Assembly: GCA_024763075.1 (NCBI GenBank)
Contig: JANTGF010000010.1
Span: 16,944 to 80,943, forward strand
Source of the DNA: Bacteroidales bacterium
GTDB taxonomy: Bacteria; Bacteroidota; Bacteroidia; Bacteroidales; VadinHA17
DNA: 64,000 bases
Direction: 5' to 3'
Shown here: positions 4,880-38,525 of the stretch, piece by piece
Layout: every line of letters starts with the position of its first letter
How positions within the stretch are numbered: position 1 is the first letter of the stretch
Program-made: the position numbers and the translations under genes
The notes under the pieces: model-generated
Seen by the model: the letters and a program-made list of their open reading frames with translations, nothing else
What the model was told of the DNA's origin: nothing
Databases searched by the model: none

Positions 4880-5115
4880 ATTTTTTCCGAAAACCAGCAA
4901 ACTTTTTCAGCAAACCCTTTTATTGTTCTTTTCAGAAACCAAAGGAACAATAGAAATCGCGAAACAGTTGAAATCTATGATTTCTTTACTGTTTCGAGCA
5001 TCCTCTTCCAAAGGAGTCCCCTTGGGAGAAAAACAAAGAAAATTAACAATATTCTGTTTTTCGGGACCATTGAAACCCACCAGAAACAAGCTCAACCAGC
5101 AAATAACCTATTTCC
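4880..5115. repeat. Structured palindromic intergenic element
   Basis: Two strong hairpins: TATTGTTC...GAACAATA (4921-4952) and CGAAACAGTtgAAATCtatGATTTctttACTGTTTCG (4960-4996). Confidence 0.6.
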
Positions 5116-15179: not shown

Positions 15180-16010
15180 TGGGGTTTGCCGTTCTATTCC
15201 GACGCTGCATAGCTGTGTTCTTTCTACGGAGCATTTCACTGCGCCGGGTTTCGTATTATATAATTTAACCCCGACTTGAAAGTCGGGGCTATATTACGCC
15301 CTTACAGGGCTGGGAGAATAATTTTGCCAAATAATATACCCAGGATATCGCTCGAATCCTTTCGCGTGATACCATAAACCATGAATAATAATTATTTTAT
15401 TAAATAATCATTTCCATTTAAAATTATCAACAAGACCAGGCAAATCACGTTTAAATTCCCCACCTCGCTGAGGAGGGGTGTCATGACGTATTCTGTTATG
15501 AAGGGGAGGTCCAGCCTGTGCGCAGGCCGGTTATCCCATCCGCTGCCGCTACCGCGCGAATCATTCGCGTGGTATTGTTTTCCATATACTACACTGGATT
15601 GTCCGGAGACGAATACAGATGTTACAATTGAAAAAGTTTTTCAATCTGGCGCTGCATTTCATAATTCTTTTACCAGGCATTTCATTGCGCCGGTTTTTCG
15701 TGTTTGCTTATACAACCCCGATGAAAGTCGGGGCTAAATTAAAATGCCCTTTCAGGGCCGAAAACATCCGGTATATCGCGCGAATACTTTCGTGTGATAC
15801 GATAAACCATGAATAATAAATATTTAACTAAAGAGTTATTTCCCATAAAATTATCCACCCCCGCTACCGCGTGAATTCTTCGCGTGGTATTGTTCTACAT
15901 ACCACACGCCGGAATGTCCGGTGATGAATACAGGTGCTACAATTGAAAAAATGTAACCCCGACTTGAAAGTCGGGGCTATAATATTACGCCTTTACAGGA
16001 CTGAATGCAG
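15180..16010 (+). repeat. Composite multi-hairpin repeat, locus I (about 2.5 iterations)
   Basis: Ordered modules: gcgctgcat...cattgcgccgg, CCCCGACTTGAAAGTCGGGG (15269-15288), GCCCTTACAGGGC, CCCCACCT..AGGAGGGG, gtcatgacg.., GCCTGTGCGCAGGC, TACCGCGCGAA..TTCGCGTGGTA (from 15550 and 15865), then repeated. Confidence 0.85.
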
Positions 16011-25049: not shown

Positions 25050-25330
25050 TGAGGTTTGTCTTTCTGTTCCGGCGCTGCATAACAATTTTCTTTTATCAGG
25101 CATTTCATTGCGCCGGACTTTCGTGTTTGATCATGTAACCCTGACTTTCACGTCAGGGCTATAATATTACGCCCTTACAGGGCTGGGAGAAGTAATTTTG
25201 CCTAATCATATACGAATAAATTCCCCTCCTTTTTTCAAGGAGGGGTGGACGTCCATGTACGGATCTTTCCTTTTTATTGTAATTATAAAATGGACGGACG
25301 GGGAGGTCCAGCCCGTGTGCAGGCCAAAAA
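25050..25330 (+). repeat. Composite multi-hairpin repeat, locus II (single iteration)
   Basis: ccggcgctgcat...cattgcgccgg; CCCTGACTTTCACGTCAGGG (25139-25158); GCCCTTACAGGGC; CCCCTCCTTTTTTCAAGGAGGGG; cggggaggtccagcccgtgtgcaggcc. Confidence 0.85.
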
Positions 25331-37392: not shown

Positions 37393-38065
37393 TTCTACCG
37401 CGCGAATCCCTTCGCGCGGTAATTTGCAAGTGTTACAACAGAAAAACATTTTCATTCCGGTGCTACATAGCCTTATTTTTCTGTCGGGCATTTCATTGCG
37501 CCGGGGTTTAGTATTGGATCATATAAACCCCGACTTGAAAGCCGGGGCTAAATTATTACACCCTTACAGGGCTGGGAGAAGAATTTTGACTAATCATATA
37601 CGTAAATTTCCCCTCCTTTTTTCAAGGAGTGGTGTCATGACGGAGTACGTCATGACGAGGAGGTCCTGCCCGTGTGCAGGCTGGTTTTGGCTGCTGCCGC
37701 GCAAATACCTTCGCGTGGTAATTTTCTATATACCACATACTGAATTGTCCAGGGACGAATGCAAGTGTTCCAATAGAAAAATTTTTTCATTCCGGCGCTA
37801 CATAGCATTGTTCTTTTTCCTGGCATTTCATTGCGCCGGGGTTATGTATTTGATTATGTAACCCCGACTTGAAAGTCGGGGCTATAATATTACGCCTTAC
37901 AGGGCTGGGAGAAGAATTTTGGCGAATCATATACGTAAAATTCCCCTCCTTTTTTCAAGGAGGGGTGTTATGACGGAGTACGTCATGACGGGGAGGTACG
38001 GCCTGGGCAGTTGCCAGTTTCTTTAGCTACCGCGCGAATCCCTTCGCGTGGTAAAGCTCAACATA
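37393..38065 (+). repeat. Composite multi-hairpin repeat, locus III, first part (two full iterations plus start of a third)
   Basis: TACCGCGCGAATCCCTTCGCGCGGTA at 37396; equivalent modules at 37695 and 38028 (spacings 299 and 333); CCCCGACTTGAAAG[T/C]CGGGG at 37528 and 37862; GTCATGACGgagtaCGTCATGAC; CCCCTCCTTTTTTCAAGGAGGGG. Confidence 0.9.
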
Positions 38066-38278
38066 GGGTTTGCTGAAAAAGTTCAGAACATGCCATATAC
38101 GAAGCTGCAAGGTAAAGCTGAGCCGTAGCAATGAAGTAGATGGTATGTTATGGGCTAACAATAGTAAAAAATGCAAGATTTTTAGTAAAAACCTATAATA
38201 AATCTGGCATTTGGAATGAAATACGCACTTTTATATAATTGATTATTGGAAGTTTAAGTGTTTTTCAGCAAACACTTC
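38066..38278. mobile_element. MITE-like element, about 213 bp, inserted inside the composite repeat
   Basis: Ends GGGTTTGCTGAAAAA and ...TTTTTCAGCAAACACTTC (inverted); flanked by ATA on both sides (38063-38065 and 38279-38281); interrupts the conserved 'gtggta...acataccacacgctggattgtcc' order seen in other copies; no ORF. Confidence 0.75.
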
Positions 38279-38330
38279 ATACCACACGCTGGATTGTCCA
38301 GGGACGAATGCAGGTGTTACAGGGATGGTC
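38279..38330 (+). repeat. Composite multi-hairpin repeat, locus III, remainder after the MITE insertion
   Basis: 'ataccacacgctggattgtccagggacgaatgcaggtgttaca', equivalent to 15899-15940 and 37731-37770. Confidence 0.85.
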
Positions 38331-38525
38331 CGGCCCAGGGAACAGACCACAAGTCAGGAGGTGACCCTGAATCACCTCCTGACTAAAAAACATGCCCGTT
38401 TCATACAATATTCCAATTATTTCATCATATATGGTTCTTATGAAAAGGTTTTTTGATTACTTTCGTTTCAAAACAGAAAAAGAAACCATTTCTATCGTTT
38501 TTCAACTAAAATACTTTCTACCAAC

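Follow-up and report, generated by a model that had tools for sequence, protein, structure and literature searches.

A chain of ordered hairpins in a Bacteroidales genome is probably a composite of repeats associated with Y1 transposase-type and DUF559 endonuclease genes

What is a series of different hairpins that recurs in a fixed order between genes of a Bacteroidales bacterium: a structured RNA, a group of terminators or a mobile DNA element? The question is raised by the window analysed here, a stretch of 64,000 nucleotides, in which an initial annotation had described hairpins A to H as a tandem composite repeat with units starting at 37396, 37695 and 38028. The hairpins, their fixed order and these starting points are as stated there when checked against the sequence, whereas the count of three tandem units needs amending: the chain at 37396-38321 comprises two full units plus a fragment (Table 1). 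Unit 1 lacks the H hairpin, of which just the tail is kept, and hairpin G is degenerate in unit 2. The third unit runs from hairpin A through a separate 206-bp insert (38068-38273) to H; this insert is unrelated to the chain, splits A from the last H and carries 13-bp perfect terminal inverted repeats (GTTTGCTGAAAAA / TTTTTCAGCAAAC). A 19-bp end match of the insert is found again at 4900-4918.

When folded as single-stranded DNA, the region 37393-38055 yields a z of -8.2, with none of 20 dinucleotide shuffles being equally stable. A scan of the chain region for promoter-like and terminator-like sites found no excess over chance, a single E copy being terminator-like by score, on the minus strand. 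The 145-aa open reading frame that spans the repeat (37424-37861) was judged spurious and set aside because it is filled with hairpin repeats. Besides, a strong separate hairpin (AGTCAGGAGGTGA..TCACCTCCTGACT) lies 3' of the chain at 38352-38384 of the window, and similar GTCAGGGGGTGAC hairpins come after chains at two other loci (L055, L042).

Table 1. Features of the hairpin chain and of the related loci, in window positions.
Feature	Position	Strand	Description
Locus I	15185..16010	+	degenerate tandem chain, convergent neighbour genes; RF01687 match 15269-15311
Locus II	25063..25324	+	single B-C-D-d-E-f-G unit, convergent neighbour genes; RF01687 match 25140-25184
Hairpin A, copy 1	37396..37421	+	TACCGCGCGAA-TCCC-TTCGCGCGGTA
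Hairpin B, copy 1	37457..37504	+	CCGGTGC ... GCGCCGG
Hairpins C and D, copy 1	37528..37573	+	full-length, sub-threshold RF01687 match, 29 bits, E 2e-4
E-F-f module, copy 1	37610..37666	+	DUF559-associated hairpin element without its gene
Hairpin G, copy 1	37667..37681	+	GCCCGTGTGCAGGC
Hairpin A, copy 2	37695..37720	+	
Hairpin H, first copy with stem	37739..37774	+	
Hairpin B, copy 2	37792..37839	+	
Hairpins C and D, copy 2	37862..37906	+	sub-threshold RF01687 match, 29 bits, E 2e-4
E-F-f module, copy 2	37943..37999	+	
Hairpin A, copy 3	38028..38053	+	
Hairpin H, last copy	38286..38321	+	unrelated insert between A and H

The same order had also been reported for two further loci of the window, and the chain is indeed present at both, although locus I is degenerate and locus II consists of one unit that lacks A and H and has a longer insert in place of F. 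Across the 4.6-Mb genome, 71 BLAST pieces and module maps place the order B-C-D-d-(A)-E-F-f-G-A-H in about 29 clusters, and this order is therefore not due to chance. Since clusters often lie at contig ends in this fragmented assembly, their number is a lower bound. All of them are intergenic, with chain copies in both orientations relative to the adjacent genes, and by our own tally of the 21 clusters with both neighbours assigned, 12 have convergent neighbours, 7 co-directional and 2 divergent ones. Many copies have hairpin B as their left edge, abutting unrelated flanks, and their right ends vary between D, G and A; at partial loci, B-C or B-C-D stands alone (L058, L063). Neither terminal inverted repeats bounding the repeat unit nor, on module maps inspected by eye, any evident target duplications of the unit were found.

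Chain copies are on average about 77% alike, and their similarity therefore does not support recent movement, while the slightly greater likeness of copies within a locus (0.80, compared with 0.77 between loci; permutation p 0.02) fits an old, mixed duplication. In a sister species (G001) the chain order is the same, but the C and D stems differ completely. A search of that species found no clean empty site for the chain; one orthologous gene end there is without it and has a different neighbour.

The initial annotation had named covariation as a check on this structure, and covariation is found in the B-C-D core. In an alignment of 41 cores (37 belonging to this genome, 4 to the sister species), the two species together present 36 double-change cells against a shuffled mean of 7.3, and 94% of cells pair, whereas sliding the partners leaves no more than 53% paired. 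C stems occur as CCCCGAC..GTCGGGG, CCCTGAC..GTCAGGG and CCCGGGG..CCCCGGG, and D stems as GCCC..GGGC, GTCC..GGAC and GCTC..GAGC. Compensatory changes thus preserve the pairing of C and D, and the hairpins are under selection for pairing. Hairpin B varies hardly at all among these cores and therefore provides little information there.

A covariance model of the B-C-D core (R1), built from the chain alone, was then used for the search of relatives that had likewise been proposed; the E-values of our covariance models are rough, given their short calibration. R1 matches were present in 32 of 148 relatives, representing 24 of 74 genera, where the stem sequences are unrelated, and two of them adjoin Y1_Tnp (PF01797) genes (L180, L166). 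On 39 Y1 loci, R1 yielded 27 matches at E <= 0.01 by our count, typically in inverted orientation to the left and right of the gene, among which L166 and L180 are not independent because they had been found through R1. Among 80 independently collected Y1 loci, taken from named genomes, 50 were matched at the same threshold, and 72 of the 79 matches lay within 400 bp of the gene. The adjacent matches in this set were arranged as 29 upstream on the minus strand and 14 downstream on the plus strand, versus 5 and 4 in the remaining arrangements. None of 35 control loci (DUF559 and other genes) was matched at E <= 0.01, and IS200-type Y1 loci without the Y---Q--HH motif (L097-L103, L105) gave no R1 matches. 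Several relatives (L119, L180, L166, L218, L265 and others) thus have a Y1 gene with these repeats on its flanks. An alignment of 100 gene-side R1 matches contains 452 double-change cells against 123 when shuffled, the alignment being fitted to the model.

Nearly all repeat-bearing Y1 genes encode an HUH motif together with Y---Q--HH, the signature of TnpA-Y1 "subclass 1.2", whose members are described as generally lacking typical IS200 terminal structures (PMC6006769). The profile of this family matches transposase structures of ISHp608 and ISDra2 with E about 1e-17. The genome under study has four diverse Y1 genes, and no intact one with matching hairpins was found in it. At L033 (G000:C21:22945-26181) the assembly shows a broken Y1 reading frame, with an exact reverse complement of hairpin C upstream; a full chain copy is located a few kb from this gene. 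At L031 (G000:C84:14938-18279) an intact Y1 gene lies between tandem copies of another chain, made of six different hairpins, and the same hairpin order surrounds the Y1 gene at L106 and L107, which come from other genera. Meanwhile, a single genome (G112) contains three different Y1 genes, each adjoining a tandem array of its own in which two to four hairpin types alternate (L131-L133). Ordered chains of different hairpins around such genes are therefore common in the group.

Part of the core had already been catalogued under another name. At gathering score, an Rfam search of the window returned just a tRNA, and it was a permissive search that brought up RF01687; further permissive matches, to ncr1175, RsaE and anti-hemB, scored far below their cut-offs and were dismissed as chance. 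The C-D pair is RF01687, Acido-Lenti-1, with which it shares a length of 46 nt, two hairpins and a conserved CUA linker. The window copies match it over its full length at 27.9-30.5 bits, below the 37-bit gathering cut-off, and chain copies elsewhere in the genome exceed that cut-off: of 34 genomic matches, 15 reach it (up to 46.2 bits), and 12 of these 15 are chain copies. A match to a described repeat, which had been named as an outcome that would refute the proposal, was obtained in part: C-D matches a family already catalogued, although one to which no function had been given. The original publication presented RF01687 as a probable RNA occurring in Acidobacteria and Lentisphaerae (PMC2864571), and a 2026 paper, calling its function little known, still reads it as a possible regulator (PMC13298647). 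Whereas it is listed as an sRNA, the motif here belongs, in another lineage, to a larger repeat and lies beside transposase-type genes, a setting that points to a DNA site.

When 40 Y1 loci were searched at gathering score, RF01687 accounted for every one of the 29 Rfam matches, a count that is biased because 20 of the loci had been chosen for their R1 matches; 20 DUF559 loci gave none. An unbiased comparison, independent of R1, came from 60 genomes in which RF01687 and PF01797 were searched separately: 10 of 83 gathering-level RF01687 matches lay within 500 bp of one of the 100 Y1 genes, where 0.06 would be expected. Outside the Bacteroidota, gathering-level RF01687 matches beside Y1 genes were also observed in records from Verrucomicrobia, Deltaproteobacteria, Phycisphaerae and Kuenenia (L265, L272, L269, L256, L290).

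The E-F-f module is a different element, namely a set of hairpins that flanks genes for DUF559 proteins, which are Vsr-like PD-(D/E)XK endonucleases (PMC12907096), and that is present in the chain without such a gene. In family relatives, E occurs alone or as inverted pairs, and the layout of the chain's own module, CCCCTCC..GGAGGGGTG-hairpin-CGGGGTGGT, flanks DUF559 genes (e.g. L209, L196, L195). A looser E-F-f motif was detected both upstream and downstream of 13 of 21 DUF559 genes, compared with 4 of 134 control windows. A second model (R2), built from the chain's E-F-f copies, gave 14 matches below 1e-5, at 5 of 30 DUF559 loci, and one strong match on the 39 Y1 loci; taken with the R1 results, the two models thus separate the Y1 and DUF559 gene families. 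The DUF559 literature that we found describes no flanking repeat of the E-F-f kind, and no description of such hairpin chains was found in the literature searched.

With B-C-D associated with Y1 genes and E-F with DUF559 genes, the chain is a composite of two enzyme-associated hairpin families; the assignment to enzymes covers these two parts but not hairpins A, G and H. Most probably, it is a non-coding, non-autonomous DNA element resembling REPs and BIMEs, in which B-C-D serves as a single-strand hairpin site for Y1 enzymes of subclass 1.2 and E-F-f is the DUF559-associated part. It shares with the REP/BIME repeats of TnpA-REP (RAYT) REPtrons short palindromes in many intergenic copies, with REPtrons the inverted pairs of sites around a single HUH Y1 gene, here seen in relatives, and with BIMEs the composite tandem arrays. 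The enzymes concerned, however, carry Y---Q--HH, whereas those of REPtron class 2 carry Y---NP, so the system would be REPtron-like in its working without being a member of class 2. The GT[AG]G guide at the hairpin foot is absent, the consensus before C being TAACCCCGAC, with no GTAG. A further difference from REPtrons is that each unit strings different hairpins together in a fixed order, with a module added from another enzyme's element. In this sense, the view that the locus is "not a simple REP array" holds in detail, although its parts are REP-like families joined together. As for IS200/IS605 elements such as ISHp608 and ISDra2, the Y1 enzyme is homologous and hairpins likewise adjoin the gene, but here the gene copies are few and diverse in each genome, and inverted hairpin sets on both sides take the place of the asymmetric left and right IS ends.

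How such an element might spread can be modelled on E. coli TnpA-REP, which acts on its own REPs (PMC8266576). Where a strand becomes single-stranded, for example at a replication fork, C and D would fold, and a Y1 enzyme supplied in trans would cut and rejoin the DNA beside the folded pair. The B-led segment would thereby be copied or moved to another intergenic site, and recombination between A hairpins or between whole units may generate tandem copies. The earlier suggestion of a non-autonomous mobile element gains support from the inverted placement of B-C-D around Y1 genes and from the presence of E-F around DUF559 genes, whereas the movement itself is what we infer. A bolder reading, to which we give an even chance, holds that Acido-Lenti-1 is a DNA site, not an RNA, of an undescribed REPtron class (subclass 1.2), that DUF559/Vsr-like genes form a second REPtron-like system, and that both have fused and spread as a unit in this genus.

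The explanation that comes nearest is a weaker form of the same composite: B-C-D would be the REP unit of a Y1 enzyme, with E-F, G, A and H as neighbouring repeats nested by chance and duplicated together. That E-F is a separate element, standing alone in family relatives, is in keeping with this, as are the partial loci and the somewhat greater likeness of copies within a locus. Yet one composite order recurs at about 29 loci and also in the sister species, a pattern that calls for the composite itself to have dispersed rather than for repeated chance nesting; this leaves the account rather unlikely, although it deserves serious consideration. A structured non-coding RNA or 3'-UTR module, comprising either C-D or the whole chain, was the other possibility raised by the initial annotation and agrees with the Rfam label and the published view of RF01687. 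The strong covariation would suit it, and so would the frequency of convergent neighbours and rarity of divergent ones, since read-through transcripts would then include the chain; but covariation in a palindrome is expected equally of a DNA site, promoter-like and terminator-like sites remain at chance level, and chain copies point either way relative to neighbouring genes. Because the same motif is inverted around transposase-type genes, a DNA-level site fits better, and we consider the RNA reading improbable.

Doubts are somewhat greater about ordinary terminators or mRNA-stability hairpins at gene ends that were spread by segmental duplication only. The preference for convergent intergenic positions and the one terminator-like E copy are what such hairpins might show, but terminators are not in excess, have no need of a fixed order of different hairpins and would not predict the flanking of two unrelated endonuclease genes; this makes the proposal quite improbable. 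A classical MITE moved by a DDE transposase is the most implausible of these accounts: the copies are dispersed, short and non-coding, as it would require, but the unit is without terminal inverted repeats of its own or target duplications evident by eye, its right ends vary, and the enzyme beside the core is of the HUH/Y1 type.

On the composite-element reading, cognate repeats would be assigned to a group of HUH enzymes that has been described as generally without them, and RF01687, listed without a function since 2010, would gain one that can be tested. The E-F-f module suggests that Vsr-like endonucleases, too, have a REP-like repeat partner. Finally, the chain would illustrate how hairpin elements of separate origin become joined in a single unit that disperses.
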